From an uncultured Cohaesibacter sp. (lineage in GTDB: Bacteria; Pseudomonadota; Alphaproteobacteria; Rhizobiales; Cohaesibacteraceae): a stretch of DNA of 64,000 bases. Where the stretch lies: contig NZ_OY781114.1 in assembly GCF_963676485.1 (NCBI RefSeq), forward strand, positions 124,001-188,000, given 5' to 3'. Below the pieces are notes generated by a model. The model saw nothing but the letters and a program-made list of their open reading frames with translations, was not told the origin of the DNA and did no database searches. Below, piece after piece: positions 7,988 through 36,336 of the stretch. Within the stretch, counting starts at the first letter, position 1. Each line of letters starts with the position of its first letter. Position numbers and translations under genes: made by a program.

Positions 7988-8037
7988 GCCAACTGCCGTT
8001 GAAGTTTTATTCATTTGCATAGCGTTGAAACAGAGTC

Positions 8038-8049
8038 AGCCTATAGGCT
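8038..8049. promoter_or_regulatory. Palindrome upstream of uehA, possible EnuR operator
   Basis: AGCCTATAGGCT is a perfect 12-base palindrome in the 170-base gap between enuR and uehA. A second, looser inverted repeat CAATT...AATTG lies around 8079-8095, overlapping TTGACC at 8081-8086 that could be a -35 box. These are candidate operator and promoter elements for the ueh/eut/doe operon; no binding data are implied. Confidence 0.35.
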
Positions 8050-8157
8050 CAAGTTAAATTGTCATGATTTAATGTTTCAATTGACCTGAAATTGTCCCTG
8101 TTTGATTGTATGGCAACAAAAATAATAACGCATTCATATCCGACAACGAGGGAAGCG

Positions 8158-20162: not shown

Positions 20163-20179
20163 TTTCACCAACGCAAAAG

Positions 20180-20208
20180 CAAGGCGGGCTCCATGCCCGC
20201 CTTGTTTC
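20180..20208 (+). terminator. Rho-independent terminator ending the ueh-eut-doe operon
   Basis: A perfect 10-bp stem CAAGGCGGGC (20180-20189) / GCCCGCCTTG (20195-20204) with a 5-base loop is followed by TTTCG. It lies 18 bases after doeD and separates it from the Lrp gene. Confidence 0.8.
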
Positions 20209-20370
20209 GTTTCCCGCCTGATTTCTATTCTTTTCCATAGGCTGAGCGACCTGATAAAACTGTGCTTGGCCTTCCCCGCCTCAATTGTGCTACCAATTGA
20301 ATGAGCCAATGGTTTGCGCTGCGAACACCCTTTTGCCCAAGACCCGATAGTGCACGGAGACACAACAGCT

Positions 20371-20862
20371 ATGCCTGCCGCAGGACTGAAACTGGATGAC
20401 AGAGATTGGGCGATCCTGAAGATTTTGCAAACCGAAGGACGCATCACCAAGGCGGCTCTGGCGCAGCGGGTCAATCTTTCCCCCACCCCCTGCTGGGAGC
20501 GGCTGAAACGGCTTGAAGAGGCCGGTATTATCGAGGCCTATGAAACCCGCCTCTCGCTAAAGGCTTTCGGCTCCCTTGCTGTGGTCTTTGTCGAAGTGGA
20601 GCTTGATAGTCACCGTTCAGAAGATTTTGAACGGTTCGAGACCGCAGTTCAGGACTATCCCGAAATTCTCGAATGCTGGGCTGTGGGTGGCGGACTTGAT
20701 TACATTCTCAAGATCGTTGCCAAGGATGTGGACCATTATCAACGGCTCATCGATCATATGCTCGAAGCGGATATCGGCCTCCGGCGCTATTTCACCTATG
20801 TGGTCACCAAACCGGTCGTCAACCGATCGGCTCTACCGCTGGAAAAGCTCCAGCTCGATTGA
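20371..20862 (+). CDS. Lrp/AsnC-family regulator of the ectoine cluster (DoeX/AsnC type)
   Basis: A 163-residue feast/famine regulator: N-terminal helix-turn-helix (DDRDWAILKILQTEGRITK, LAQRVNLSPTPCWERLKRLE) and a C-terminal RAM ligand-binding domain (WAVGGGLDYILKIVAKDVDHYQ). ATG 20371 gives the family N-terminus. This gene type regularly accompanies doe genes, where DoeX binds DNA upstream of the catabolic operon. It stands after the operon terminator, so it probably has its own promoter in 20209-20370. Its ligand is unknown; a pathway amino acid would be logical. Confidence 0.87.
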   Translation: MPAAGLKLDDRDWAILKILQTEGRITKAALAQRVNLSPTPCWERLKRLEEAGIIEAYETRLSLKAFGSLAVVFVEVELDSHRSEDFERFETAVQDYPEILECWAVGGGLDYILKIVAKDVDHYQRLIDHMLEADIGLRRYFTYVVTKPVVNRSALPLEKLQLD

Positions 20863-21725: not shown

Positions 21726-23363
21726 ATGACGAATGCCGAAGAAGCTGGCATCCCCGCGCCGGAAGGCGATACGGAAATTATTGAAACCGATTATGAGATC
21801 GGTCAGGACAATGTCGAGGGTCAGGTTGGACCATTCGGATTTGACGTGCACAACCCGGTCTTTCTCGTCTCGGGACTTTGCATCGTTGCCTTTGTCTTTT
21901 ATGCGCTGGCCCTGCCAGAACAGGCAGCCTCGGTTTTTGGCTGGCTGCGCCCGTGGCTGACGTCCACCTTTGACTGGTTCTTCGTTGGCGCTGCCAATAT
22001 CTTTGTTCTTTTCTGCCTCTTTCTCATCGTCAGCCCCTGGGGCAAGGTGCGACTGGGTGGGCAGGATGCTGAACCCGATTTTACCTATAGAGGTTGGTTC
22101 GCCATGCTCTTTGCCGCAGGCATGGGCATCGGTTTGATGTTTTTTGGCGTTTTGGAGCCTGTCTATCATATGGCGGTTTCCCAGCCATTGGGCACGCCAT
22201 CCCCGCTGGATGGCTCGGGCAACATCATTGCCGAGAATGTTGAGCGGGCCAAGGAAATGGGGCTTGCTGCCACGATCTACCATTGGGGTCTGCACCCTTG
22301 GGCTATTTACGCCATTGTGGCACTGTCACTCGCGCTGTTTTCCTTCAACAAGGGCCTGCCGCTGACCATCCGCTCCGCGTTCCATCCGATTTTTGGCGAC
22401 CGCATTTGGGGCTGGACCGGCCATATCATTGATATTCTGGCCGTGTTTGCCACCCTCTTCGGCCTTGCCACTTCTCTGGGCTTTGGTGCGCAGCAGGCCA
22501 ACGCTGGCTTGAACCATGTCTTTGGCATTCCAATCGGCACGCCGGTACAGATTATCCTTATCACGGTCATCACAGCCGTTGCGCTCTTTTCGGTGTTGCG
22601 TGGCCTTGATGGAGGCGTCAAACTGCTCTCGGAAATCAACATGGGCATCGCGGCTCTGCTGCTGCTGTTTGTGCTGTTTGTCGGTCCGACATTGTTGATC
22701 CTTACGGACTTCGGCGAAGGCCTTCTCGCTTATGCCGAAGATATCATCCCGCTGTCCAATCCGTTTGGGCGGACTGATCTGGATTATCTGCATGGCTGGA
22801 CCACTTTCTATTGGGCATGGTGGATCAGCTGGTCACCTTTCGTCGGCATGTTCATTGCACGCGTTTCGCGCGGCAGGACCGTACGGGAGTTTATCACCTG
22901 TGTGCTGCTCATCCCGTCACTGGTCTGCGTTCTCTGGATGGCCGTTTTTGGTGGCGTCGCGATCGACCAGGTCTTGTCAGACCCACTGACCTCTGCGGTT
23001 AAGGCCAATGTGATCGACAATTACAATCCCCCGCTATCCCTGTTCGCAATGCTTGAAGGCCTGCCCTTCTCAAGCATCACCTCTGTGATTGCGATTGTGC
23101 TGGTCATTGTCTTCTTCGTGACTTCGTCGGACTCCGGCTCGCTGGTTATCGATACCATCACGGCAGGCGGCAAGATCGATGCGCCGGTTCCCCAGCGGGT
23201 CTTCTGGGCCACGTTTGAGGGCGCGGTTGCGATCGTGTTGCTTGTTGGCGGCGGCTTGACTGCCCTGCAGGCCATGGTGATCTCAACGGGTCTACCCTTC
23301 ACAGTCGTGCTGCTGGTCATGTGTTATGCTGTCTATAAGGGCCTCAGCACAGAACCACGCTAG
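21726..23363 (+). CDS. BCCT-family betaine/carnitine/choline transporter
   Basis: A 545-residue secondary carrier with 12 expected helices. The family signature region GWTTFYWAWWISWSPFVGMF followed by ARVSRGRTVREF is intact, as is FAAGMGIGLMFFGVLEPVYH in helix 3, where glycine-rich GMGIG suggests Na+-coupled betaine-type substrates rather than the proton-coupled or exchange types (inference from known BCCT members). An acidic cytoplasmic N-terminus of about 45 residues precedes helix 1; the C-terminus after the last helix is very short (YKGLSTEPR), so the long osmosensing tail seen in BetP is absent. Next to the ectoine cluster it probably imports a compatible solute as nutrient or protectant. 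Confidence 0.9.
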   Translation: MTNAEEAGIPAPEGDTEIIETDYEIGQDNVEGQVGPFGFDVHNPVFLVSGLCIVAFVFYALALPEQAASVFGWLRPWLTSTFDWFFVGAANIFVLFCLFLIVSPWGKVRLGGQDAEPDFTYRGWFAMLFAAGMGIGLMFFGVLEPVYHMAVSQPLGTPSPLDGSGNIIAENVERAKEMGLAATIYHWGLHPWAIYAIVALSLALFSFNKGLPLTIRSAFHPIFGDRIWGWTGHIIDILAVFATLFGLATSLGFGAQQANAGLNHVFGIPIGTPVQIILITVITAVALFSVLRGLDGGVKLLSEINMGIAALLLLFVLFVGPTLLILTDFGEGLLAYAEDIIPLSNPFGRTDLDYLHGWTTFYWAWWISWSPFVGMFIARVSRGRTVREFITCVLLIPSLVCVLWMAVFGGVAIDQVLSDPLTSAVKANVIDNYNPPLSLFAMLEGLPFSSITSVIAIVLVIVFFVTSSDSGSLVIDTITAGGKIDAPVPQRVFWATFEGAVAIVLLVGGGLTALQAMVISTGLPFTVVLLVMCYAVYKGLSTEPR

Positions 23364-23389
23364 GCTGCTCACAAGCCACACAAACAAAC

Positions 23390-23421
23390 AAAGGCCTGGC
23401 ATCTTGCGATGCCGGGCCTTT
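23390..23421. terminator. Bidirectional Rho-independent terminator between BCCT gene and quinone oxidoreductase gene
   Basis: A 13-bp stem (AAAGGCCTGGCAT, 23390-23402, with ATGCCGGGCCTTT, 23409-23421, one G-T wobble) and a 6-base loop lies between two converging genes. It has TTTGTT on one side and TTTGTTTGTTTG on the other when read on the opposite strand. Confidence 0.88.
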
Positions 23422-23457
23422 GTTATATCAGCTAGGATGCTCTTCCCGTTCGCCCAA

Positions 23458-24429
23458 TCAGGGCTTGAGAATGGTTGCACCGGTGGTCTTGCGGCCCTCC
23501 AGAGCCTTATGGGCTTTGCCAGCGTCTTTCAACGGCACAGAGGCAACCACATCAGCCATGACCGCGCCGCTGACGAGCTTGTCGAACAGATCGGCAGCGC
23601 GCGCTTCCAGATCGGCCCGCTTGGCCACATAGTCAAACAGAACAGGGCGACAGGCCGCAAGCGATCCCTTTGCCAGATCGGAAAGCTTGAAATCTTCGAT
23701 CATGCCGGAAGACTGGCCGAAATTTGCAAACATGCCGAAAGGCTTGAGGCAGCTGAGCGATCCGCGCCATGTGTCCTTGCCGACGCTGTCATAAACCACT
23801 TCGCACCCTTCACCGCCCGTCAACTCCATGACCTTCTCGGCGAAATTCTCTTCGCGGTAATTGATGACGTCGCTATAGCCATGCTCCAGGGCCAGCGCGA
23901 CCTTTTCCGCCGAGCCTGCCGTGCCGATAGCGCGAGCACCAAGGGCTTTGAGCCACTGGCCCAGAATGAGGCCAACCCCGCCTGCAGCAGCATGCACCAA
24001 TACCGTATCCCCAGCCTTGACGGCATAGGACGACGTGACAAGATATTGCGCCGTCAGCCCCTTAAGCATGACGGACGCGGCAAGGTCATCCGAGACGCCA
24101 TCAGGCAGAACCACCAGTCGATCAGCTGCCAGCACGCGGCGCTCGCGATAGGCGCCGAATTTGAGGACATAAGCGACTCTATCGCCAACCTTAAGCCCTT
24201 CCACGCCCTCGCCGATTGCCTCGACAACACCCGCGGCCTCGGCGCCGGGGATCATCGTGTCTTCTGCCCAAGGATAAAGCCCCGTTCGGTTATAGACATC
24301 GATAAAGTTGACGCCAATTGCCGTGTGGCGCACCAGGGCTTCTCCCGGACCGGGCGCACCTGTTTCCAGTGCGCACCACTCCATGACTTCCGGACCACCA
24401 GGTCTGGAAGCGACAAGTGCCATATCCAT
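23458..24429 (-). CDS. Zinc-free MDR family quinone oxidoreductase
   Basis: A 323-residue NADPH:quinone oxidoreductase of the medium-chain dehydrogenase superfamily. Signatures: GVNFIDVYNRTGLYP, the PGAEAAGVVEAIGEGV segment, and the NADPH loop VHAAAGGVGLILGQW. Structural zinc cysteines of alcohol dehydrogenases are missing, as in QOR. It would reduce quinones or enones one electron or hydride at a time in the cytoplasm. GGAG lies 6 bases before ATG 24429. It is the last gene of the sugar ABC operon, 78 bases after the AhpD-like gene, which may indicate a detoxifying or redox role in the same pathway. Confidence 0.88.
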   Translation of the reverse strand: MDMALVASRPGGPEVMEWCALETGAPGPGEALVRHTAIGVNFIDVYNRTGLYPWAEDTMIPGAEAAGVVEAIGEGVEGLKVGDRVAYVLKFGAYRERRVLAADRLVVLPDGVSDDLAASVMLKGLTAQYLVTSSYAVKAGDTVLVHAAAGGVGLILGQWLKALGARAIGTAGSAEKVALALEHGYSDVINYREENFAEKVMELTGGEGCEVVYDSVGKDTWRGSLSCLKPFGMFANFGQSSGMIEDFKLSDLAKGSLAACRPVLFDYVAKRADLEARAADLFDKLVSGAVMADVVASVPLKDAGKAHKALEGRKTTGATILKP

Positions 24430-24507
24430 TTTCTTCTCCGATTTTTGCGCCGCCTTCGCCTTGCATAGGTGGCGGCGACGCCAAAGTCATGTGTTTATAT
24501 CAGGCTC

Positions 24508-24915
24508 TCAGGCCAGAAATTCAGGGTCAACCGGCACCTGCATCGCAGACACCAGATGGTTGGTCTGCGCGGCCAGCCCAACGATGGACAGAAGCTCGGC
24601 ATAGGTATCCTCGGTCATGCCCTTGGCGCGGGCTTGTGCGGTGTGCGAATGCAGGCAATAGGAGCAGGAATTGGCTGCCGAAACGGCGATGTAAATCATC
24701 TCGCGCGTCATCGGGTCGATGTTGCCAGGCGTCATCATGACAGCCTTCAACCCTTCCCATGTGCGCTTGAGCAAGGCCGGATCAGCGGCCCCCAACGCAC
24801 GCCAGAAATTATTGATGAAGTCGGTTTTGCGCAGATCGCGGATTTCGTCAAAGACTTCCTTTACGGCCGGGATCTTTTCGGCTTCTTCATCGGTGAGCAG
24901 TTTGACAGTTGCCAT
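24508..24915 (-). CDS. AhpD-like carboxymuconolactone decarboxylase family protein
   Basis: A 135-residue all-helical AhpD/CMD-fold protein. The redox motif SCSYCLHSHT (Cys84, Cys87, then His) is typical of the peroxidase-type, thiol-active branch, so a role in thiol-disulfide or peroxide chemistry is more likely than lactone decarboxylation. A strong AGGAGG precedes ATG 24915, directly after the aminotransferase stop codon, so the two genes are co-translated. The physiological substrate is not evident. Confidence 0.85.
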   Translation of the reverse strand: MATVKLLTDEEAEKIPAVKEVFDEIRDLRKTDFINNFWRALGAADPALLKRTWEGLKAVMMTPGNIDPMTREMIYIAVSAANSCSYCLHSHTAQARAKGMTEDTYAELLSIVGLAAQTNHLVSAMQVPVDPEFLA

Positions 24916-24927
24916 CTTGGTATCCTC

Positions 24928-25782
24928 CTAGGCGTGTGCCCATTCCATATATAGTGAACGGGCCTTCTTGGTGATTGGCCCATATGCGAGTTCCCGGTCT
25001 TCAATACGAGATACCGGGATGACCTTGGAGATATTCCCGGTAGAAAAAATTTCGTCCGCTTCCATGAAATCCTGAACGGTCAGGGTCATTTCATGCACGC
25101 TGTATCCAGCATCGCGCAGCAGCCCGAGGACACGCTTGCGCGTGATGCCAGCAAGGAAAGTGCCATTGGGGATGGAGGTAAAGACCTCCCCGCCGCGCAC
25201 CATAAAGACATTGGCCGTGGCCAGTTCTGCGACGTTGCCTGCGCAATCTGTCACTAGCGCGTTGTCAAAGCCCTTCTTCTGGGCCTCACGCACCATGCGG
25301 GCATTGTTGGCATAAAGACAGGCTGCCTTGGCGTTGGTTGGAGCCACTGCGAAGGTCGGACGGCGGAACTGGGTGGTGGTGATGGAAAAGCCGGTTGGTT
25401 CCACCATCGGGATTTCTTCAAGACAGAGCGCAAAATCCGTCGAAGATGCAAGCGGAGGCAGCGTGCCAACGTCGCTTTCCTCGGCCCAATACATTGGCCG
25501 GATGTAAACATCTGTGTTGGGCGCGAATTTTTTGATGCCGTCTTTGGCAAGCGCTTCAATTTCTTCGCCGGTAAAGGTTGGATCCAGCATCAAGGCCTCT
25601 GCAGAGCGATTGATCCGTTGGCAATGCAAGTCCAGATCAGGCGAAACACCCTCAAACAGGCGCGCGCCATCAAACACCAGAGACCCGAGCCATGTTGCAT
25701 GAGAGGCAGCGCCCAGAATGCGCACATCGCCCTCATGCCAATCGCCCTTGTAATAGGTCCACATTGCGCGCTCGCAAGCCAT
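24928..25782 (-). CDS. Branched-chain amino acid aminotransferase-like fold-type IV transaminase
   Basis: A 284-residue PLP transaminase of the BCAT group. Visible: GSLVFDGARLFEG, DVYIRPMYWAE, candidate Schiff-base Lys152 in PTNAKAACLYANN, and the LATANVFMVRGGEVFT PLP-binding region. ATG 25782 is chosen because GGAGAAAG lies just upstream; the longer frame is not supported. It sits 32 bases after the ABC ATPase gene in the same operon, which is unusual for a housekeeping ilvE. A dedicated role on an amino compound brought in by this transporter is possible. It is distinct from the D-amino acid transaminase at 929. Confidence 0.85.
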   Translation of the reverse strand: MACERAMWTYYKGDWHEGDVRILGAASHATWLGSLVFDGARLFEGVSPDLDLHCQRINRSAEALMLDPTFTGEEIEALAKDGIKKFAPNTDVYIRPMYWAEESDVGTLPPLASSTDFALCLEEIPMVEPTGFSITTTQFRRPTFAVAPTNAKAACLYANNARMVREAQKKGFDNALVTDCAGNVAELATANVFMVRGGEVFTSIPNGTFLAGITRKRVLGLLRDAGYSVHEMTLTVQDFMEADEIFSTGNISKVIPVSRIEDRELAYGPITKKARSLYMEWAHA

Positions 25783-25814
25783 TGTCTTTCTCCTTCGATG
25801 GGTTGGCAGGTCCG

Positions 25815-27311
25815 TTAATGGACCGCCGCATACATGATCTTTTCCTCGGTCGCCTCGGCGGGTGAAAATTCTTCCACGATGCGCCCCTGACGACAAACGA
25901 GAATGCGGTCTGACAGATTCATGATCTCCGGCAGGTAGGAGGAAATCACCACCACCGCCAACCCCTGATCGGCCAAACCATTGATGATTTGGTGGATCTC
26001 GGCAATGGCTCCGACATCCACGCCGCGGGTCGGTTCGTCAAAAATCACCAGCTTGGGTTCCTGAACCAATCCCTTGCCGATCACCACCTTTTGCTGGTTG
26101 CCACCGGATAGCTCGACCACACGGGCATTGTCGTTGATGGCGCGAATATTGAGCTTCTTGGACCAATCGGCAGCCACATCCCGCATTTCATTCTTGCTGA
26201 CATACCAGGCCTTGTCATGACCTGCGGCGATGAGACCTGCATAGATATTCTCGGCAATCGACATGGTCTCGAAAAAGCCTTCGCTCTTGCGGTCTTCGGT
26301 GACATAGACAATGCCGTCACTGACCGCTTCCCGCGGTACATAATAGCGGGTTGGTTTCTCGTTGAGCACCACGGTTCCGCCACGCAGGAAGTCCCGCTTA
26401 TAGATGCCGGAAATGATCTTGAAGGTCTCGGTGCGCCCCGAACCAATCAAGCCGAAAACACCGGTGATTTGGCCTGCAAAGACCGAGAAGGAGTTGTTGC
26501 GCACCATGGCCCCCATGGAAATATCCTGCACGGAAAGCACCTTCTTCCCAGCCTTGCGCACACCGCTTTCATCGCGATTGCGATAGAGCTCGTCCGAGAG
26601 GGTCCGCCCCACCATGGCTGCGATCACCGTGTCTCGGGTGAAATTCTCTGTCTTGTCGCTGGCCACCAGTTCTCCATCGCGCAGGATGGTGATGCGATCG
26701 GAAATCTGCAATGCTTCCTCAAGAGCGTGACTGATGAAGATAATCGACACGCCACTCTTTTTAAGGCGCTCGACCAGCGCAAAGAAATGCCGTTTTTCTT
26801 CCGGCGTCAAGGTCGCGGTGGGTTCATCAAAGATGATGACTTCGGCCTTGTGATGCACCGCACGGGCAATCTCGACCATCTGCCGCTTGGCCGCGCCAAG
26901 GGTGGCAACCAGCGCTGTCGGGTCTACCGAGAAGTTGAGCGATTGCAGGAATTGCTGGGCCGAGATGAAGGTGCCACGCAGGCGATTGAGAAAACTCTCC
27001 GAGCCCAGATAGAGATTCTGCGCTACCGTCATGGACGGAACAAGGCTGGTTTCCTGAAACACCATGGCGATGCCGGCTCCGAGCGCCTCATTGGGGTTGG
27101 GAAAGACCGTCTCCTTGCCATGGTGAAACATCTTGCCTTCGGTCGGCTCAACCACGCCCGCCATCATTTTGGTGAGGGTGGATTTGCCTGCACCATTTTC
27201 GCCAAGCAGGGCGTGAACCTCGCCCTTGTGCAGTTCGAAATCCACCTTCTTGATGGCAGGAACCCCGCGGTAGGTCTTGGTGATTTTTTCCATGCGAATG
27301 ATGGGGTCCAT
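25815..27311 (-). CDS. Sugar-type ABC transporter ATP-binding protein (two ATPase domains)
   Basis: A 498-residue RbsA/MglA-type protein with two fused ABC domains. First domain: Walker A LLGENGAGKSTLTKMM and Walker B VIIFDEPTATLT, with the weak signature LGAAKRQMVEIARAV. Second domain: degenerate Walker A FGLIGSGRTETFKI, strong signature LSGGNQQKVVIGKGL and Walker B LVIFDEPTRGVDVG. This asymmetry is normal for the CUT2 family, which imports monosaccharides such as ribose, galactose or xylose. ATG 27311 follows GGAGGGCTAAGG and lies 4 bases after the propeller gene. It energises the two permeases encoded upstream. Confidence 0.92.
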   Translation of the reverse strand: MDPIIRMEKITKTYRGVPAIKKVDFELHKGEVHALLGENGAGKSTLTKMMAGVVEPTEGKMFHHGKETVFPNPNEALGAGIAMVFQETSLVPSMTVAQNLYLGSESFLNRLRGTFISAQQFLQSLNFSVDPTALVATLGAAKRQMVEIARAVHHKAEVIIFDEPTATLTPEEKRHFFALVERLKKSGVSIIFISHALEEALQISDRITILRDGELVASDKTENFTRDTVIAAMVGRTLSDELYRNRDESGVRKAGKKVLSVQDISMGAMVRNNSFSVFAGQITGVFGLIGSGRTETFKIISGIYKRDFLRGGTVVLNEKPTRYYVPREAVSDGIVYVTEDRKSEGFFETMSIAENIYAGLIAAGHDKAWYVSKNEMRDVAADWSKKLNIRAINDNARVVELSGGNQQKVVIGKGLVQEPKLVIFDEPTRGVDVGAIAEIHQIINGLADQGLAVVVISSYLPEIMNLSDRILVCRQGRIVEEFSPAEATEEKIMYAAVH

Positions 27312-27315
27312 ATCC

Positions 27316-28371
27316 TTAGCCCTCCGCTTTCGTATCTTCAACGCTCAGCAGCAGATCGCCGCCCTTGGAGGCAACAATGATCTCGCCATTAAACTCAATG
27401 GCGCTGCAGACGCCATGGCGATTGCCATTGGCGCGGCTGTGCATGCTGGCGATCGGGTTCATGGCCTTGCCCAACCGCACCACCATGCCGTAGGACCGGG
27501 CCGGAGCCCAGGCCTTATAGACCCCCATGGTACGGATGCCACCACACTGAAGCGGCTCAAGGAAGCTGCGGTTGGAATAGAGCGCCGGAGCGATCCAATA
27601 ATCACGCGGCACGCTTTCCATCATGTCGTAGCGATAATGCTTTTCCTGCAGAACCAGCTCGACCAGACGATTGCGTGGGGCGAAAATAGAGAGAATGGCG
27701 CCCCCATCCGATGTTGGCATGATGCGGGAAGGATAGCCGGGTATCTGGTCAATCAGCGAGGACACATTCTTGTCCGCATCGATCTGCATCACGCGGTGTT
27801 TCCAGCTTTCCGAGAAGACCACGCGGCCACCGCTCAACGGGCATAGACCATATGGGTAGGCGAGGCCACCGGCGACCTTTTCAAAAGCCTCGCTGGGAGT
27901 ATGACGCACCCAGATCGAACCACACGCCTTTTTGCTCATCAGGTCAGCAGCCCAATCCGAGCAGGCATGTTCCGAAGAGCCATTGGCCAACCAGAGGGAA
28001 CCATCATAGGAATAGGCAAGTGCAGTGATTGCCTTGATCTCTTCGAGCAGATGCACCGGCTCCCCTTCCACGACGAGCTGGCCTGTTTCCAGAGCAACCG
28101 CCAGTTTATCGTCAGGAGAGACCGCAAGAGCGGTAATCGGTGCTTCAAACGAGCGTAGCAATTTGGGTTCGCTGCCCTTGTTGATGGCATAGATGGCGTT
28201 CCCCGAGGAGGCAATCACCTCCCCTTTGAACACCGCCAGATTATCCGGCTCGGAAAGATGGGCATGTATCTGCGCTTCATCTAACACGGTGTTGGGGCGG
28301 AAAGCGCCATCCATAGGCGGAATGGTCACGGCCTTGCCGCGGAAGATATCGAGGATGGGATCGAGGATCAT
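27316..28371 (-). CDS. SMP-30/strictosidine-synthase-like beta-propeller protein, likely degenerate
   Basis: A 351-residue soluble propeller, with no signal peptide, homologous to the C-terminal half of the upstream fused permease. They share PYGLCPLSGGRVVFSESWKH and PGYPSRIMPTSDGG against YTNGVCMAHDG and PGYTDNINRASDG. In the fused protein the Asn of YTNG and Asp of YTDN match SMP-30 metal ligands. Here they are Tyr (YPYG) and Ser (YPSR), so metal-dependent lactonase activity is probably lost or altered. ATG 28371 overlaps the stop of the permease gene (ATGA). It may bind the sugar or lactone or partner the fused domain. No exact function is known. Confidence 0.8.
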   Translation of the reverse strand: MILDPILDIFRGKAVTIPPMDGAFRPNTVLDEAQIHAHLSEPDNLAVFKGEVIASSGNAIYAINKGSEPKLLRSFEAPITALAVSPDDKLAVALETGQLVVEGEPVHLLEEIKAITALAYSYDGSLWLANGSSEHACSDWAADLMSKKACGSIWVRHTPSEAFEKVAGGLAYPYGLCPLSGGRVVFSESWKHRVMQIDADKNVSSLIDQIPGYPSRIMPTSDGGAILSIFAPRNRLVELVLQEKHYRYDMMESVPRDYWIAPALYSNRSFLEPLQCGGIRTMGVYKAWAPARSYGMVVRLGKAMNPIASMHSRANGNRHGVCSAIEFNGEIIVASKGGDLLLSVEDTKAEG

Positions 28372-30491
28372 GCTTTTTCTCCCCAATAAGACGTCATGCC
28401 GGTCCAGTTCGGGTCGGCGCCTTCAATGTCAAACAGACCGATCCGGTTGTTCAGAATGCCACCGATGAAGAGTTTGCCCTTATGCTCGCGCATGGAGGTC
28501 ACCATCGGGTGGTTCTGGCCGGTGAGATCGCCCATGGTCTGGATGATCGTGGCGCTGTCATCGAACTTGACGATACCGCCGGTGTTGATGTTCGGGAACA
28601 ACCAGTCATCCTGCGGCAAGCGACGGGTCATGCGCTTGCGCATGTCCGGATGGCGTAAAGAGAGGTCGAAGCTTGGAGTACGCATCCCCAGCCATGCCAT
28701 CCAGTAGGTGCCATCGGAAGCGCGGTTGATATTGTCGGTATAGCCAGGCATATCCTTAATAACGCATTCCACCGTTCCTGCCTTAGGGCCAGCGATCCAA
28801 TAGCGATGGATACGGCTTCTCCAGCTTTCCGAAAAATAGAGAGACTGTCCGTCATGCGCCATGCAGACGCCGTTGGTGTAGCGATAGCCATCAAGCAGCG
28901 TCTTGGTGGAGCTATCCTTGGGATCATAGACCAGCAGGCGCCCTGTGCCGCGGTTCTCGATGGAATCGAGCATCCATTCATGGGCATCATAGCGCTTGGT
29001 GGAGTCGGTGAAATAGATCTTGCCATCGGGCGCGATGTCGAGGTCGTTCGGGTCGCGCATGCGGGCATCATCGACGATGGATGTCAGCGAGCGGCGGGTC
29101 TCGGCGGAAAGGCGTGTCACCTCGCGATCCGGCGAAATCTTGTAAAGCCCCATGGCACCAACGCAGGTGATGAGATTTTCATCCTTGTCGAAGGCCAGCC
29201 CTAGCGGAAACCCACCGACATGGGCGAAGACTTCAGAGCGTTTATAGTCCGGCGCAAAATAGCGGATGATCTCGCCATGACGCGTACCGCAATAAAGATG
29301 ATCATTGCGGTCAAGGATAACATCTTCTGGCCCTTCCAGCTCACCAAGGCCGATATGCCGGGCTGAAGAAAGCTTGTTGTTGAGGGAATAGGCCGAGCCG
29401 GAGCCGGGTTCTGCCGATTCAGATTTACCCATTTTGAGATAGACCGGCGCCACATAAACCTCGTTGAGCACCTTGTGGCGGTTTTTAAGCCAACGGATGT
29501 CAATGGTCACAGCCAATGCCAACATGATGCCGAGCACCATCTGGTTGGTGCCTGTACCAAATCCAAGGCGAATAAGACCGTTGGTCATCACCAGCACGAT
29601 GATCGCGCCCATGATGCCCTTGACCACCGAGCCACGGCCTCCGCCAAGGGAATTGCCACCAACAACGGCCGCTGTCAGCGCCAGAATTTCAAGGCCATGA
29701 CCGGTGCCCGGTCCGGCGCTCGACAGGCGCGTTGCCATGAGGAAGCCGGAAACACCCGCGCAGAAGCCGGAAAAGACATAAGTCATGAAAACTGTGCGCC
29801 GCACCCGTATACCGGCATTATGCGCCGAGCGACGAGAGCCCCCGACTGCCTGCACATGCCAGCCGGGCCTTGATCGGGTCAGCGCAATATGGGTGATCAG
29901 CGCAAAGACAATCGCTGTCAGCACGGGCACCGAAAAACCAAAGAGAGTGCCATCGCCAATGAAGTCCCACAAATCGGAAGACATGAAGGACATCTGCGTT
30001 TCCGCCCCATATTGCACCACGAGAATATCAAACAGGGCGCGCCCGATAATGAAGGTCACCAGCGTGGTGAGAAAGGCACGCAAGCGCAAAAAGCCGATGA
30101 GATAGCCATTGATGGCGCCACAGACAACGCCCGTCGCGATGGCTGCCAAAAGGCAGACCCAGACTGGTGCTTCGAAAATGAAGAAGGTGCCAACAGATGC
30201 GAATGTCGCCAGCGCAAAGATGGAGCCGACCGACAGGTCGATGCCGCCGCCCAGCATGACAACCGTCAGCCCGGTAACGACAAGAGAGAATTCCCCCAAC
30301 TGACGGGTGGATTCCTGCAAGGAATAGGGCTTGAAGAAACCCGGGATAGCAGATCCGAAGGCGGCCACAGTGATCACCAGGGCAATAAAGGGAATGGCGT
30401 TATCCGTCCATCGCTTGGTCAGGATCTCCCCGATAAGATGATCGGGAATGGTATTGTAGCGCCAGGCTTGCAGTCTTTCACGAAAGGCCAT
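28368..30491 (-). CDS. Fusion of CUT2 sugar ABC permease and SMP-30/gluconolactonase-like propeller
   Basis: A 707-residue fusion. Residues 1-340 form a BPD_transp_2 permease (RbsC type) with about 9-10 helices, including VMLGGGIDLSVGSIFAL and the VVGGNSLGGGRGSVVKG loop that contacts the ATPase. A 35-residue linker rich in Ser/Gly leads to a six-bladed propeller (about 380-707) of the SMP-30/strictosidine-synthase type. Likely metal ligands are present: Glu386 in LEGPED, Asn in DPNDLDI, Asn in YTNGV and Asp in YTDNI. Since C-termini of such permeases face the cytoplasm, the lactonase-like domain should sit at the cytoplasmic exit of the channel and could hydrolyse an incoming sugar lactone. 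Confidence 0.88.
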   Translation of the reverse strand: MAFRERLQAWRYNTIPDHLIGEILTKRWTDNAIPFIALVITVAAFGSAIPGFFKPYSLQESTRQLGEFSLVVTGLTVVMLGGGIDLSVGSIFALATFASVGTFFIFEAPVWVCLLAAIATGVVCGAINGYLIGFLRLRAFLTTLVTFIIGRALFDILVVQYGAETQMSFMSSDLWDFIGDGTLFGFSVPVLTAIVFALITHIALTRSRPGWHVQAVGGSRRSAHNAGIRVRRTVFMTYVFSGFCAGVSGFLMATRLSSAGPGTGHGLEILALTAAVVGGNSLGGGRGSVVKGIMGAIIVLVMTNGLIRLGFGTGTNQMVLGIMLALAVTIDIRWLKNRHKVLNEVYVAPVYLKMGKSESAEPGSGSAYSLNNKLSSARHIGLGELEGPEDVILDRNDHLYCGTRHGEIIRYFAPDYKRSEVFAHVGGFPLGLAFDKDENLITCVGAMGLYKISPDREVTRLSAETRRSLTSIVDDARMRDPNDLDIAPDGKIYFTDSTKRYDAHEWMLDSIENRGTGRLLVYDPKDSSTKTLLDGYRYTNGVCMAHDGQSLYFSESWRSRIHRYWIAGPKAGTVECVIKDMPGYTDNINRASDGTYWMAWLGMRTPSFDLSLRHPDMRKRMTRRLPQDDWLFPNINTGGIVKFDDSATIIQTMGDLTGQNHPMVTSMREHKGKLFIGGILNNRIGLFDIEGADPNWTGMTSYWGEKA

Positions 30492-30574
30492 CTATCAATT
30501 TTCCGACGACTTGAGCCATCCGTCACGTAAGGGAGGATTCCGAAAGGGACGGATTGGGAATAGAGAAAACGAAG

Positions 30575-30651
30575 GTTCCTCTCCATGTCTGCCGGTCAAC
30601 GACAGACATGGAGACGGAGAGGAACGGGCAGATTTGGGCCCTGCCCGTTCC
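30575..30651 (-). promoter_or_regulatory. Pair of hairpins after the sugar-binding-protein gene (processing/attenuation region)
   Basis: In the 211-base gap after the binding-protein gene there are two perfect 11-bp stems: GGAACGGGCAG (30621-30631) with CTGCCCGTTCC (30641-30651), and CTCCATGTCTG (30581-30591) with CAGACATGGAG (30603-30613). A further 9-bp pairing, 30575-30583 with 30617-30625, extends or competes with both. On the minus strand the distal hairpin is followed by CGTTTTCTC. The arrangement suggests partial termination or RNA protection that keeps binding-protein expression above permease expression. Confidence 0.6.
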
Positions 30652-30702
30652 TGATTAACCGCTGGCAGAGCCTTTCGCGCCCCGCCAGAGCAGAAACGGC
30701 AC

Positions 30703-31734
30703 TTATTCGCCAGCCGCTTCAGCCTGAAGCGCGGCAAGATCCCAGCAGCTGTCTGGTTTGAGGTTGTCTTTGGTGGTTGCCTTCAGCAACGTATAGATAT
30801 ACGGCGCCGAGGTACCGGCAGGCTGGCCGCTCTGGAGCAGATATTTGATGATCGCAACCATATTGTGTGTTTCCTGAGCAAGGTCCGTCATGACCACTGC
30901 TCCATAGGTGCCATCTTCAATCAGATCACAGTCAGCGGTTTTCTCGCCCCCACCCGTGGTTACAAGGAAGACATCTTCCTGCTTGCCAGCATCGCGAATG
31001 GCTGCAGCCGCTCCGGAAGCGTCCCCGTCCCAGAAATCGATGATGCCGCAGACATCCGGGTTCTGCTGCAACATGGTGGTGGTCACGTTCCGCGAGGTGG
31101 TGGCATCCCAGTTAGAATCCGGCTTGGCAACCACTTCGAATTCAGGATATTTGGCGAGCACTTCCATAATGCCTGCATACTGGAACAAGCTGGTCGCATT
31201 GACCTGATCGCCCTGCACCAGCCCGATCTTCTTGGAGGAATCCGGGCCACATCCCTTGACGACCGCCTCAGCTTCCAGACGACCAAGTTGGGTCCAGTCG
31301 CTTCCCACATAGGCATCAGCCTTAAAGTTGGCCGGATTGTCCACGAGGATCACATAGATGCCAGCTTTCTGGGCGCGCTTCATCAGCTTGGAATAGGAGT
31401 TCATGTCCGGAGACATGACGATCAGAACGTCAGGTTTGTTTTCCGAGGCGATGGCTTCGGTTATGGCCTGCGCACCGGCCTCCACGCTCCAGTTGGGATC
31501 GCGGGTTTCAAAGATACCGCCAAAGGCGTCCACTTCACGCTTGAGGATAGCGGCCCAGCCCTGCGCTAGGTCGAAGCCCATGGCCATCGGAACCAGCATG
31601 ATGCGCTTGCCTTCCATGGCCTTGGCGTAGATCTGAGGAGCGGGATCGCCAGCGGCGGATACCGGCGCAACGAGTGCGGCAGAACTGATGGTGAGCGCCG
31701 CGGTAGCGGCCATAAGGGTCTTGATGATGGTCAT
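30703..31734 (-). CDS. Sugar ABC transporter periplasmic substrate-binding protein (RbsB family)
   Basis: A 343-residue type I periplasmic binding protein. A signal peptide MTIIKTLMAATAALTIS with cleavage near PVSAAG leads to the mature protein. It has the usual alternating fold with KRIMLVPMAMGFDLAQGWA near the start, VLIVMSPDMNSYSKLM and VILVDNPANF in the first lobe, and IGLVQGDQVNATSLFQY in the second. The ligand is not clear: sugars of the ribose/galactose/rhamnose type or a sugar acid or lactone are possible. It is placed between two permease genes, which is uncommon for this family. Confidence 0.9.
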   Translation of the reverse strand: MTIIKTLMAATAALTISSAALVAPVSAAGDPAPQIYAKAMEGKRIMLVPMAMGFDLAQGWAAILKREVDAFGGIFETRDPNWSVEAGAQAITEAIASENKPDVLIVMSPDMNSYSKLMKRAQKAGIYVILVDNPANFKADAYVGSDWTQLGRLEAEAVVKGCGPDSSKKIGLVQGDQVNATSLFQYAGIMEVLAKYPEFEVVAKPDSNWDATTSRNVTTTMLQQNPDVCGIIDFWDGDASGAAAAIRDAGKQEDVFLVTTGGGEKTADCDLIEDGTYGAVVMTDLAQETHNMVAIIKYLLQSGQPAGTSAPYIYTLLKATTKDNLKPDSCWDLAALQAEAAGE

Positions 31735-31867
31735 GTCTGTCCCTCTTCTGGAAAGGTTTTTGATTGCTCGTGTTTTTTGATTTTATTGGAATGGCTATTG
31801 TTGCTTCTTGGTCTTTTTGCATTTGGTGCGTACTGCGATCTTGATCGGTCTATGCTGTGCTTGCTTG

Positions 31868-32839
31868 CTAGATATCCCCCTGCTGCGCGGTTTGCTCATC
31901 ACGCGGATTGATGACACCGTCCACGATGATGGCACCAAGCAGGATGCCGGCCTTGATGAGATTCTGATAGAGCAGCGGAATGTCGATGATCGTCATGGCA
32001 TTGAGCATGATGCCGATGAGGGCTGCGCCAAACAGCACGTTACGCACGCCTCCCTTGCCGCCAGACAGCCCGATACCGCCAATGACCGTGATCAGCACGA
32101 TGTCATAGAGCAGGTTGGAGTTGACGATGCGGGTATTGATGGAATGCAGACTGGCGGCTGTGAGGATACCGGCAACGAAGGCAATCAGCGCAGACAGCAC
32201 ATATCGCAGCACCATCATCGGGCGCACTGGCATGCCGGAGTTGCGCGCCGTTTCGGGGTTGTCGCCAGCATAATAGACATAGCGCCCCCACTTGCTGTAA
32301 CGCAGGAACAGAAAGGTGGCAAAAGCCAAACCGGCAAAGAGGAACACCTCAACCGGAATACTGGCAAAGCGCATCCCGCCGAGAATTTCGACCCAATGAC
32401 CAGATGGCACAGGGACCGCATCGGTATTGATCAATTGGGAGCGGACAAAGCCAAAGACGAATGACGAGCTGGCCAATGTCACAAAAATGGCGGGCACATC
32501 GGCATAGGCCACCAGAATGCCGTTGATCAGGCCGATGGCGAGCACACCAGCCAACGCCAGAGCAAGGGCGGTGCCCTCGCCCATGCCTGAATTGAGCATT
32601 TGCAGATAGCAGGCAACGGACATGGCCATGATGGCAACCATGGACAAGTCAATGCCGCGACCGATGATAATCATCGCCATACCAAGAGCAAGGATCCCAA
32701 GCACGGAAACGGAGCGCACGATGGCAACCAGATTGTTCGCCGTAAAGAATCCGGGCAGAAGCAAAGACGCCAACGCGAACATTGCCACTGTAATCGCCAG
32801 CACAATGCTTTCCTGATTGAGATTTTTTAAGAAGCTCAT
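31868..32839 (-). CDS. CUT2-family sugar ABC transporter permease
   Basis: A 323-residue BPD_transp_2 (RbsC-like) permease with about 9-10 helices. Typical segments are LALGMAMIIIGRGIDLSMVA and TVIGGIGLSGGKGGVRNVLF. ATG 32839 (MSFLKNL) is preferred: AGGG lies about 10 bases upstream, and the earlier in-frame ATG at 32863 has no ribosome-binding site. It is the first gene of the operon and probably pairs with the fused permease at 28368 as a heterodimer. Its promoter and a palindromic operator lie directly upstream. Confidence 0.9.
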   Translation of the reverse strand: MSFLKNLNQESIVLAITVAMFALASLLLPGFFTANNLVAIVRSVSVLGILALGMAMIIIGRGIDLSMVAIMAMSVACYLQMLNSGMGEGTALALALAGVLAIGLINGILVAYADVPAIFVTLASSSFVFGFVRSQLINTDAVPVPSGHWVEILGGMRFASIPVEVFLFAGLAFATFLFLRYSKWGRYVYYAGDNPETARNSGMPVRPMMVLRYVLSALIAFVAGILTAASLHSINTRIVNSNLLYDIVLITVIGGIGLSGGKGGVRNVLFGAALIGIMLNAMTIIDIPLLYQNLIKAGILLGAIIVDGVINPRDEQTAQQGDI

Positions 32840-32866
32840 TTTGCGCAACCCTACTCCATGCATGGG

Positions 32867-32889
32867 TGCTGCATAATATTAATGCAGCA
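32867..32889. promoter_or_regulatory. 23-bp operator-like palindrome in front of the sugar ABC operon
   Basis: Perfect 8-base arms TGCTGCAT (32867-32874) and ATGCAGCA (32882-32889) flank AATATTA. The site is 28-50 bases upstream of the first permease start codon, where an operator would be expected. The LysR protein encoded just upstream is the obvious candidate binder (palindromes with AT-rich centre fit the T-N11-A type); a different repressor is possible. An adjacent 10-base palindrome CCATGCATGG lies at 32856-32865. Confidence 0.6.
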
Positions 32890-33011
32890 ACCTATCTTGC
32901 CTAAACAATGAGCAGCGTAGCGTCAGGTAGATCAGGGCGTCCAATGAATATTTTTACGTATAAACTATGCGCATCCTGCATGGATCGCTCTTTTGCGCAC
33001 AAATCAAACGA

Positions 33012-33959
33012 TTATATGACCTGAAGATGCCCATATTGTGCGGAATGGGGCGAAAATTCTTCCTGATATTGCTCAGAACAAATGTGTTCCCCGAGGGAAT
33101 CAATAAAGCGCTGACCGTAGGCGGGCAATGGTTGGCGCACGTTCCACATAGCGCAAATACCGAAGGTGATGAGCTCTCCCTTGAGCGCAATGGGGCGACT
33201 GCGCAACGTCGGCTCCTGAGGCTGGGCGGAAGATGGCACCACGGCGACACCATTTCCACCAATGGACATGGCCAACAGCGTATGGGGCGAATTGCTCTCC
33301 AGAACCACCCGCGGTATGGTCCCGCTCACGCGGCAGGCTGCATCAAACACCTCTCGGGAAACATGCTTCTTGTTGAGCGTCAGAATGGGCAGGCTCAGCA
33401 ACTCTTCAATCTCGATGGGCTCTTCGTCATTGCCCAGAAACTCTGCCCCACCAACGGCCAGAAATCCAAGCTGACCCAGAGGGCGGCTTTCCAACACCTC
33501 GATCGGAGCGGAAGGTTCGGCGCTGATGGTCAGATGGAAAACCCCATCCACCAGCTTGCTGGCCAGTTCCGGACCGCCACCATCTTCCAGACGGATTTCA
33601 ATATCGGGGTTGTCCTGGGTCCATTTCTTGAGAAAGCTCGGCATATAGCGCTCGATCAGTTGAGAACAGGCACCGATTTTCAGGAGGCCAGATTCGCCCT
33701 CGGTAAGATCGTCCGCAAAGGTGCGCAATTCCCTATCGGCCACCAGAACATTGTTGATCTTGGCCAGGAGCGCTTCACCCTGTGGGGTGAAACGGATATT
33801 GCGACCGGATTTTTCGAAAAGCTTGACGCCCAAATAGTCCTCGAGCGCCTTGACCTGTCGGGACAGAGCAGATTGCGTAATATTCAAACGTTCCGCTGCT
33901 TTCGTAAAATTCATCAATTCGGCAACGGCAACAAAGCTGGTATAATTGCGAATATCCAT
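33012..33959 (-). CDS. LysR-type transcriptional regulator of the sugar ABC operon
   Basis: A 315-residue LysR protein. N-terminal winged helix: SFVAVAELMNFTKAAERLNI, TQSALSRQVKALEDYLG, LFEKSGRNIRFTPQGEALL. The C-terminal co-inducer domain (about 90-300) has the usual ISAEPSAPIEVLESRPLGQL and VLESNSPHTLLAMSIGGNGV segments. ATG 33959 is preferred (MDIRNYTSF), the frame upstream being a non-coding extension. It is oriented the same way as the ABC operon and ends 172 bases before it, so it probably controls that operon through the palindrome at 32867-32889. The co-inducer is unknown. Confidence 0.9.
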   Translation of the reverse strand: MDIRNYTSFVAVAELMNFTKAAERLNITQSALSRQVKALEDYLGVKLFEKSGRNIRFTPQGEALLAKINNVLVADRELRTFADDLTEGESGLLKIGACSQLIERYMPSFLKKWTQDNPDIEIRLEDGGGPELASKLVDGVFHLTISAEPSAPIEVLESRPLGQLGFLAVGGAEFLGNDEEPIEIEELLSLPILTLNKKHVSREVFDAACRVSGTIPRVVLESNSPHTLLAMSIGGNGVAVVPSSAQPQEPTLRSRPIALKGELITFGICAMWNVRQPLPAYGQRFIDSLGEHICSEQYQEEFSPHSAQYGHLQVI

Positions 33960-34292
33960 CAAAAAAACCTGTCTGAAGAAGAACAATCCGGAAATGAATG
34001 TCAAAAGCTAAGGCCAAATTTGAAATTTTGTCAAATTTCTACAGATCATCTCCTCAGAATATGTCGCTATGGAGCGATATGGGGCTTTTACTTCTTGTTT
34101 TCGGGCTGATTGCTACTTTTGGTGTCCGGCCTAATTTTGGGACAAGACTTTCTGATTTAATTTCAATGTGCTATTGAATCTGATCTAGATGAGGACAATC
34201 TGAGTATCAGGGTAAATAATTACATTTTATTTGGAAAATTTGGTTAAGCTAGTATTAGCTGACCGAGGCTGATCGGTTTTCATTGCCTCAAA
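33960..34292. other. Divergent intergenic region between lysR and tamA
   Basis: About 330 bases, AT-rich from 34140 to 34260, with no supported gene. It should carry the lysR promoter on the minus strand and the tamA promoter on the plus strand. No clear inverted repeat of operator quality was found. Confidence 0.45.
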
Positions 34293-36284
34293 ATGCCATT
34301 GAGTTCGGAGTATGTAATTTTGTTGTCTCGGCTGACATATCATGCAGAGCGAAAATCAAGCGCTCAAACAAGGCTTGTCCGCAAAGGAGATTCGTCTCTG
34401 CTTGCGCTATGCCTTGCGAGCACGCTTTTATCCGCAGGCTGGACCAGTCCGGCTGCTGCATTTGAGTTGTTTGGCTATGATATCAGCACCAGCGGCATCA
34501 AAGCAGTCTCCGAGACCCAGCCGACTGAAGACATTCCCGATCCGGTTTCCTATACCGTGACGCTGACAAGCGACGATGAAGAGCTGACGGATGAGCTGAA
34601 AGATGTGTCCCTTCTGATCGAGAAAGAAGAAGAGCCCGCATCCGGCACAACCGGCCTGTTGATGCGTGCGCGCAGCGATCAGAAGCGCCTCATAGCCGCC
34701 CTTTATGAAAAAGGCCTTTATGGCGGAACCGTGGATATCACCGTCAACGGCGAACGCTATGATCGCGTGCCGCTGGACGAGGAATTGTCAACAGCCGGAC
34801 CGGTTACGGTCGCCATATCGGTGTCGAAGGGTCCTGTATTTACCTTCTCCAAGCCGGACGCCCGATTGAGCGATGGAGAACCGATTGATCTTGGCGAATA
34901 TGGGGTCATTACCGGCTCTCCTGCCTATTCCCAGTTGGTGCTTGATGCCGAAGAAGGCCTTGTTGCCGATTACAAGAAACGCGGCTTTGCCCTTGCGAAA
35001 ATCGAAGAGCGCTCCCTTGCGGCCGATCACAAGACCGGCAAACTCGATGTAACCTTGCGTGTTGATCACGGCCCACGTGCCCGCCTTGGGCAAGTGACGG
35101 TAACAGGCAATGAGGATGTCAAAAGCGAGCTTATCATCCAGCAGGCCAACATTCCTGTCGGAGATACCTACAGCCCAGAAGCCATTACGAAGGCCAGCCG
35201 GAACCTCAGGGCGCTTGGCGTGTTTGACAGCGTGATCGTCAAACCGGCTGATGCGTTGCTGGAAGATGGCAGCCTGCCGATTGAAATTTCCGTCAAGGAA
35301 CGCAAGTTCCGAACCATCGGCGCCGGTGTCACCATCGGCAATCTGGACGGCGTGGGACTGGAAGGCTATTGGGTGCATCGCAACCTGTTTGGCGGGGCGG
35401 AAAGCCTGCGCGTGCAGGGCTCGATTGCCAAAATTGGGCAGGACGATGTCAAGGATCTGGACTATAACGCCGATATCATCTTCAAGAAGCCCGGAGTGAT
35501 TGGCCCTGCCAGCACGTTTGATGCCAAGCTTTCGTTGAATTTCACCAATCCCGAAGCCTATCAGAAACGCGCAATCGGCGGCGAAGTGGGGCTGAGCTAC
35601 CAATGGACCGACGAACTGTCGACACGCGCAGGCCTCAAGGCCGAATATGCGCGCATTACGGACAGCTCGGGCACGGATACCAATCTGCTCTTCTCCACAC
35701 CGCTTGAACTGGCCTATGATAAGCGCGACAGCAAGCTGGACCCGACCGAGGGATTCTATGCGCTGATCGACGCGGAACCAACCATCAGCAGTGATGGCTC
35801 TATTGGCTTCTTCAAGACGAGCGCTACTCTTTCCGCCTATCAGTCACTGGACAGGGCCAAGCGCTTTGTGCTGGCAGGCAAGATTTCCGCTGGCACCATC
35901 GTGGGAGCCTCCAAGAGCGATGTGCCAACCGACCGGCGCTTCTTTACCGGTGGTGGCGGCTCCATTCGCGGCTATTCCTACCAGATGGCAGGGCCTCGCG
36001 ATGCCAGCAACGATCCGACCGGTGGGCGCTCCTATATTGCGGGGTCGCTTGAAGCCCGCATGAAGGTAACCGACAGCATTGGCCTTGCTGCCTTTGTGGA
36101 TGTCGGCAACACGTTCAACAGCTCCATGCCCAAGTTTGGGGACGAATGGTACACCGGCGTTGGTGCAGGCTTGCGCTATCTCACGCCGATCGGCCCCTTG
36201 CGTCTTGATGTGGCAGTTCCTCTCAAGAAAATTCAGGATGAGCCCAAATTTGGTGTTTATCTGGGCCTAGGACAGGCATTCTAG
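34293..36284 (+). CDS. tamA: TamA, outer-membrane translocation and assembly module (Omp85 family)
   Basis: A 663-residue Omp85 protein. After a polar start, a hydrophobic signal segment (about 36-57, SLLALCLASTLLSAGW) ends at PAAAFEL. POTRA repeats follow (about 85-330), with RARSDQKRLIAALYEKGLYG and VTVTGNEDVKSELII typical of the last POTRA. The C-terminal barrel contains the VPTDRRFFTGGGGSIRGY signature, whose RGY is the strand-6 lock of Omp85 proteins, and it ends in Phe. With TamB it forms the envelope-spanning TAM complex for outer-membrane protein or lipid transport. The ATG at 34293 lacks a good ribosome-binding site; a TTG near 34320 with GGAG upstream is an alternative. Confidence 0.92.
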   Translation: MPLSSEYVILLSRLTYHAERKSSAQTRLVRKGDSSLLALCLASTLLSAGWTSPAAAFELFGYDISTSGIKAVSETQPTEDIPDPVSYTVTLTSDDEELTDELKDVSLLIEKEEEPASGTTGLLMRARSDQKRLIAALYEKGLYGGTVDITVNGERYDRVPLDEELSTAGPVTVAISVSKGPVFTFSKPDARLSDGEPIDLGEYGVITGSPAYSQLVLDAEEGLVADYKKRGFALAKIEERSLAADHKTGKLDVTLRVDHGPRARLGQVTVTGNEDVKSELIIQQANIPVGDTYSPEAITKASRNLRALGVFDSVIVKPADALLEDGSLPIEISVKERKFRTIGAGVTIGNLDGVGLEGYWVHRNLFGGAESLRVQGSIAKIGQDDVKDLDYNADIIFKKPGVIGPASTFDAKLSLNFTNPEAYQKRAIGGEVGLSYQWTDELSTRAGLKAEYARITDSSGTDTNLLFSTPLELAYDKRDSKLDPTEGFYALIDAEPTISSDGSIGFFKTSATLSAYQSLDRAKRFVLAGKISAGTIVGASKSDVPTDRRFFTGGGGSIRGYSYQMAGPRDASNDPTGGRSYIAGSLEARMKVTDSIGLAAFVDVGNTFNSSMPKFGDEWYTGVGAGLRYLTPIGPLRLDVAVPLKKIQDEPKFGVYLGLGQAF

Positions 36285-36336
36285 TTGTGATCATCTGTTG
36301 AACTGATTCTCCAGACTCTCCAGACATGAGGCCACT

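Follow-up and report, generated by a model that had tools for sequence, protein, structure and literature searches.

CUT2 importers of the ATP-binding cassette (ABC) type (RbsABC, AraFGH, XylFGH, AlsABC) are built from BPD_transp_2 permeases, a Peripla_BP_4 binding protein and a double ATPase, and the usual view of ABC importers is that their cargo passes unchanged. The propeller lactonase RPA3624 from Rhodopseudomonas palustris (PDB 8djf, 7ris), whose activity is known from the PDB title, is a separate soluble entry, and neither TGW6 nor the plant strictosidine synthases (PDB 8kg3, 6s5u) are part of a transporter. In this study, we analysed a window of 64,000 nucleotides (C1:124001-188000) from the 5.08 Mb genome of an uncultured Cohaesibacter sp., in which nine open reading frames (ORFs), all on the minus strand, occupy positions 23458-33959. 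At its centre we find an importer in which one of two permeases is fused to a propeller with a putative metal site, accompanied by a second, free propeller in which this site is lost. All component families are known; in the literature searched, which was limited in extent, no description of the permease-propeller fusion or of its substrate was found. The reading that we favour, although we hold it at somewhat short of probable, is that of an ABC importer coupled to lactone or ester hydrolysis by the fused propeller, with the second propeller as its partner and with lineage-specific handling of the product.

The components of a CUT2 importer are all recognisable in the window (PF02653 twice, PF13407, and PF00005 in two stretches). 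The first permease (PERM; 31868..32839, PF02653) is followed by the periplasmic binding protein (30703..31734, PF13407), which carries a signal-peptide-like N terminus. The fusion protein (FUS; 28368..30491) comprises a permease at about residues 1-346 (PF02653) and a strictosidine-synthase-like propeller at about residues 373-707, which matches the Pfam models Str_synth, SSL_N and SGL (PF03088, PF20067 and PF08450) and is supported by alignment, model and fold search. The second propeller (PROP2; 27316..28371) and an ATPase with two ABC domains (25815..27311) complete the set. Unlike in the described CUT2 importers, every NCBIfam transporter equivalog stays under its cut-off here, including AraG as the best match of the ATPase, and the two permeases are dissimilar, one of them bearing a C-terminal propeller, with an extra propeller gene at its side.

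We studied 121 loci, each retrieved via the fusion gene and some repeating one another, which consist of 80 loci from named genomes (the best 80 of 156), 12 from plasmid records and 29 from further genome stretches. The named hosts are mostly alphaproteobacteria, joined by one Paraburkholderia and one Pantoea plasmid. FUS, PROP2 and ATPase genes are adjacent in all 121 loci, which exceeds a chance association; with the automated search, 114 of these loci gave the permease and 112 the binding protein. The misses fall at contig ends (L030, L032, L143, L163) or result from a narrow search range (L058, L074, L075, L089, L113, L114, L161), the genes being present on inspection in the latter group. 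The core therefore consists of permease, binding protein, permease-propeller, propeller and ATPase, a conserved unit of five genes that is smaller than the nine-gene series. That the fusion stems from a frameshift or a faulty assembly was rejected, since it reads as a single uninterrupted frame in relatives taken from many assemblies; Pfam matches, model and relatives thus agree with the original prediction on this protein. The database records seen label it by one half, the names being 'ABC transporter permease', 'RbsC' or 'SMP-30/gluconolactonase/LRE family protein'. When 385 genomes were drawn evenly from the class Alphaproteobacteria, a fusion match below 1e-200 was present in 10 of them and a match to the propeller part alone in 6 more. 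As a separate observation, L138 holds three tandem importer copies in a stretch of 19.3 kb, the first of which is followed by an HMGL-like gene.

The fused domain has a six-bladed propeller fold together with the Str_synth/SGL domain (mean predicted local distance difference test score, pLDDT, of the FUS model 82.9), and its fold neighbours include strictosidine synthases, TGW6, the lactonase RPA3624 and paraoxonase. RPA3624 shares the propeller fold at a template modelling score of 0.81 by target length, with about 15% identity to FUS in the structural alignment. Among solved structures, the fused domain matches TGW6 best in sequence (E 2.8e-22); this hydrolase-type relative has the N, N, D, N site positions of FUS, where the plant strictosidine synthases have PGG and PGN. 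The metal-site residues of FUS are E389, D390, N482, N540, D586 and N587. To follow them, we used 44 representatives below 88% identity and a tree of 52 fusion proteins, in which loci with an AhpD-like CMD gene form one clade (25 rows, support 100, stem 0.67); 19 of the representatives fall within this clade and 25 outside it. E389, D390, N540, D586 and N587 are invariant in 44/44. Position 482 is N in all 19 in-clade and D in all 25 outside-clade representatives, without exception. As this split matches the CMD clade exactly, a metal-site residue changed on the branch on which the CMD gene was gained. Judged from these residues, the fused propeller keeps a paraoxonase/TGW6-type metal site; it looks catalytic, and hydrolysis at the membrane, of a lactone as had been predicted or of an ester, is plausible for FUS.

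For the second propeller the same prediction does not hold. PROP2 is remotely related to the FUS domain (hhalign 99.9%, E 9.8e-35, 317 columns), its confident model (pLDDT 87.0) and the fold search give the propeller fold that FUS has, and neither a signal peptide nor a membrane segment is seen. Its window copy has no Pfam or NCBIfam match, and a Str_synth match is found in 19 of 44 family members. The metal site expected of a strictosidine-synthase-like or paraoxonase-type hydrolase is absent from its 44 representatives: the position of D586 is A, S or G in 44/44, that of N587 is R in 42/44, and that of N540 is N in 6/44. Other residues are invariant in PROP2 specifically, among them E188, W259, R313 and H319. 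These columns suggest that PROP2 is an inactive, degenerate relative of the fused propeller; two active lactonases, and with them the two SMP-30-like enzymes of the original prediction, were rejected as PROP2 lacks the metal site. In the propeller tree, from which the rows free_L001, L002 and L019 were disregarded (wrong ORFs chosen by length), FUS forms one group with five free propellers as neighbours. Since PROP2 lies outside this grouping, it is not shown to have arisen by duplication of the FUS propeller.

Concerning the membrane side, the FUS model places ten helices in the permease half, with 17 lysine or arginine residues in the predicted inner loops and one in the outer loops. A plain hydropathy scan recovers 9 of these 10 helices and ten in PERM; it finds no hydrophobic segment in PROP2 and one at the N terminus of the binding protein. 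Both propellers are most likely cytosolic. Such a location, beside the ATPase, would suit propellers of purely regulatory function, in which FUS senses the imported ligand or a cytosolic metabolite and gates the transporter by trans-inhibition, PROP2 serves as structural mate and no hydrolysis takes place. The loss of the metal site in one of the two propellers fits this view, and so does the propeller pair accompanying the ATPase in every locus while the surrounding enzymes vary. However, the FUS site is invariant save for the clade-specific N/D exchange, as catalysis rather than mere binding would predict, and we consider regulation alone rather unlikely.

The nature of the cargo was approached through the binding protein and the neighbouring genes. 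Compared to the ribose-type binder 4ry0, four aligned positions, which we take from RbsB to be pentose contacts, are replaced in the binding protein (R to N, R to F, N to W, D to G), so that in this comparison it lacks the recognition residues for pentose or hexose and differs from the CUT2 importers. Its family conserves W60, R78-D79-P80-N81, W235 and the cysteines 162, 229, 269 and 330 (45 sequences). Among the outside-clade representatives, 12 of 25 have coenzyme A (CoA)-type or alcohol/aldehyde dehydrogenase neighbours (L106, L108, L109, L111, L112, L135, L136, L137, L138, L139, L145, L148), a grouping that is our own reading and in which a few neighbours lie one or two genes off or on the other strand. 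In L109 (Shinella sp. HZN7 plasmid, 6591-8932), a degradative 3-hydroxy-3-methylglutaryl-CoA (HMG-CoA) reductase abuts the first permease gene, which possibly fits uptake of mevalonate or mevalonolactone. L145 has HMG-CoA lyase, CoA-transferase and enoyl-CoA hydratase as neighbours; CoA-transferases occur at L106 and L139, and CoA ligases at L108, L135, L136 and L148, directly abutting the transporter in the last three. A lactone-type pair of alcohol and aldehyde dehydrogenases follows the transporter in L111, L112 and L137, resembling what we take to be the logic of the blc (attKLM) gamma-butyrolactone operon of Agrobacterium, a lactonase with alcohol and aldehyde dehydrogenase; that lactonase presumably has a different fold and is unfused to an importer. 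Overall, the neighbour family scans gave chemistry classes rather than one substrate.

The CoA ligases, together with TGW6 as top match among solved structures, would also be expected if FUS split a glycosyl or acyl ester as TGW6 does, which we assume to be a hydrolase of indole-3-acetic acid (IAA)-glucose, and the freed acid were then activated to CoA. In the loci read, however, no glycoside or conjugate pathway is linked, and a bacterial fold neighbour with a named activity is a lactonase, rendering conjugate cleavage quite improbable. The original prediction had further proposed a sugar importer, feeding a nine-gene pathway of amino sugar, sugar acid or sugar lactone uptake, lactone opening, transamination and redox protection. 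CUT2-type parts and the sugar-binder fold speak for it, as do an SGL-type lactonase gene near L152 (by eye) and near L137 (Pfam) and the position of the Pantoea locus in a sugar-alcohol-like cluster. Apart from this latter locus, the replaced pentose-contact positions and the CoA-type neighbours in many relatives point away from sugars, and the metal site missing from PROP2 speaks against the pathway as well.

The accessory genes bear on the same pathway. The window contains a class IV aminotransferase (24928..25782) of the PRK13356 branched-chain aminotransferase group (NF009896, 491.5 bits against a cut-off of 262), an AhpD-like CMD protein (24508..24915), a quinone-oxidoreductase-like protein (QOR; 23458..24429; PF08240, PF00107) slightly under the NF008024 cut-off (331.4 against 348 bits), and a LysR-type regulator as first gene of the series (33012..33959; PF00126, PF03466). 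The CMD protein matches PF02627 and TIGR00778 and shows a Glu and a CxxC-x3-His motif in its sequence, whose roles we assume from AhpD; the full-length AhpD model TIGR00777 is not reached (33 bits against a cut-off of 191.95). With Pfam or NCBIfam backing eight of the nine proteins, the known families named in the original prediction stand for all but the window copy of PROP2. With other AhpD-like CMD proteins (PDB 2ouw) the CMD protein of the window shares the CMD domain (E 1.8e-54) and the CxxC motif, but unlike these, the window type is always found beside this importer in one clade.

Accessory genes were counted in the 65 of 80 named-genome loci with adequate flank, leaving out 15 with short flanks. 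Near the fusion of these 65 in-clade loci, CMD is present in 65, QOR in 19, LysR in 17, transaminase in 14 and all four together in 13. These in-clade counts are weighted towards one genus because 48 of the 80 loci are Mesorhizobium-titled; without such loci (n=25), the numbers are 25, 16, 14, 11 and 10, respectively. The remaining loci were searched at >=30% identity from -6 to +7.5 kb. Seven of these other 41 loci belong to the same clade and all seven have CMD, whereas none of the four genes is present in any of the 34 outside-clade loci, a set that contains near-duplicates, one 3.2-kb piece (L143) and one record-end cut (L104). The outside-clade locus L112 also carries, some 7.4 kb downstream, a gene annotated as CMD family but of a different type, which these counts leave out. 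In the clade members L039 and L099 the contig ends before CMD, and in L069 CMD lies on the opposite strand. The AhpD-like CMD gene is hence a marker of one fusion clade, and the synteny expected for it is tight within this clade. Transaminase, QOR and LysR are patchy companions; an obligate nine-gene pathway was therefore rejected, and the pathway as a whole, although the four accessory genes do occur together in 13 loci, is unlikely, with transaminase and QOR missing from most in-clade loci. Their arrangement also varies. In Shinella, the genes for transaminase, CMD and QOR precede the core, with a divergent LysR gene ahead of them, and at the Pantoea locus CMD is the sole accessory gene of the four.

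In a reverse test, CMD relatives (E 1e-30 or better) are found in 52 of the 385 genomes, and the four closest (67-100%) belong to the four genomes with an in-clade fusion, at a distance of 2.6-3.5 kb. Transaminase relatives (E 1e-90 or better) are found in 24 genomes, beside the transporter only in the case of the window copy, and the source genome holds a second relative at C1:91809-92654. L043 (8-7541) shares a different, conserved upstream gene set with some 40 further loci, the majority from Mesorhizobium; the set comprises DUF4432, a fatty-acid-desaturase-like protein, a Rieske protein, a ketopantoate hydroxymethyltransferase-like protein and a major facilitator superfamily transporter, with an aromatic amino acid lyase on the other strand. 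It may be a separate cluster and was left out of the argument.

With all predicted ORFs present, the nine minus-strand genes of the window are real and operon-like. From QOR upwards, the intergenic spacings are 78, 12, 32, 4, -4, 211, 133 and 172 bases, consistent with the predicted gaps of 4-211 bases save for the ATGA overlap of -4 at the PROP2/FUS junction; the starts of PERM and transaminase were set by comparison with relatives and a ribosome-binding site judged by eye, that of PERM being taken from the near-identical locus of Cohaesibacter marisflavi (L023; fusion 98-99% identical). The original prediction had named a separate promoter and terminator separating the ATPase gene from the transaminase gene as a finding that would refute it. 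Such internal elements were rejected, as the consensus scan places neither in the 32-base gap, and no RNA structure is seen there (z +1.3). Across 23300-34300, the scan gave 8 sites resembling promoters, against 6.6 in shuffles, and 10 resembling terminators, against 10.0, not above shuffle expectation. A hairpin with a U-rich tail 3' of QOR (23387..23424, minus strand; fold of 23380-23457, z -4.6) is a probable terminator, which the consensus terminator scan did not report. The spacer between binding protein and fusion (30492..30702, minus strand) contains three strong consecutive hairpins without a U tract, with a minimum free energy of -92.5 kcal/mol (z -6.0; 0 of 200 shuffles equally low). 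A structured spacer is present in 16 of 17 relatives tried, the remaining one having a spacer of 13 bases, and the hairpins perhaps protect the binding-protein message. Outside the operon, visual inspection of the ORF list points to an ORF resembling class III aminotransferases with an Lrp/AsnC-like one after it (window 18783-20862), and to two neighbouring genes of TamA/TamB type that diverge from the operon (window 34293-40329).

We propose a model in which a CUT2-descended ABC importer would bear a catalytic-looking propeller on the cytosolic end of one of its two permeases, with the site-less PROP2 as probable partner in the same complex, e.g. under the other permease. The ligand delivered by the binding protein would be small and non-classical, in all likelihood a lactone or an ester, which the fused propeller would open at the channel exit, trapping the product as the free hydroxy acid. 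This product would then enter lineage-specific pathways. In the clade of the window, the product or its stress may be handled by the AhpD-like thiol oxidoreductase, joined in part of the genomes, the present one among them, by a transaminase and an enzyme like quinone oxidoreductase under a LysR regulator. Sequence and models show the architecture, its conservation as a block, a metal site that FUS retains and PROP2 does not, the clade-linked change at position 482 and the predicted cytosolic side; hydrolysis, the partner role of PROP2, the substrate class and the functions of the accessory enzymes are what we infer.

Several observations weigh against coupled hydrolysis. The metal role of the FUS positions is one that we assume from paraoxonase, DFPase and SMP-30. 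Among free propellers, those closest to the fused domain (L014-L018, about 36% identical), from genomes without a fusion match at the survey threshold, start with an anchor-like hydrophobic segment, which would place them outside the membrane, unlike the predicted side of FUS. Telling neighbours are lacking in 13 of the 25 outside-clade representatives (e.g. L140, L141, L147), and the dehydrogenase and CoA neighbours of the others are a trend only. In L105 (Pantoea sp. At-9b plasmid), importer and CMD lie inside a cluster resembling sugar-alcohol catabolism, with dihydroxyacetone-kinase-like, triose-phosphate-isomerase-like, RpiB, transketolase and lumazine synthase genes. Finally, CMD, transaminase and QOR sharing one operon is not explained by an importer-hydrolase model.

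Taken further, coupled hydrolysis leads to a possible, if doubtful, generalisation, namely an enzyme-coupled importer subfamily of alpha-, beta- and gammaproteobacteria in which vectorial hydrolysis makes uptake irreversible and the pseudo-enzyme propeller is obligatory. Such a subfamily would have been adapted to various lactones or esters, perhaps including mevalonolactone, and in one clade its active site would have been retuned with the gain of the AhpD-like gene. If true, a permease with a conserved catalytic-type exit domain and a degenerate relative of that domain would be a test case for the coupling of transport and chemistry. Annotation of the fused protein by one half hides this architecture, and the fusion itself may serve as a guide in looking for systems that take up lactones, mevalonate-type compounds or conjugates.

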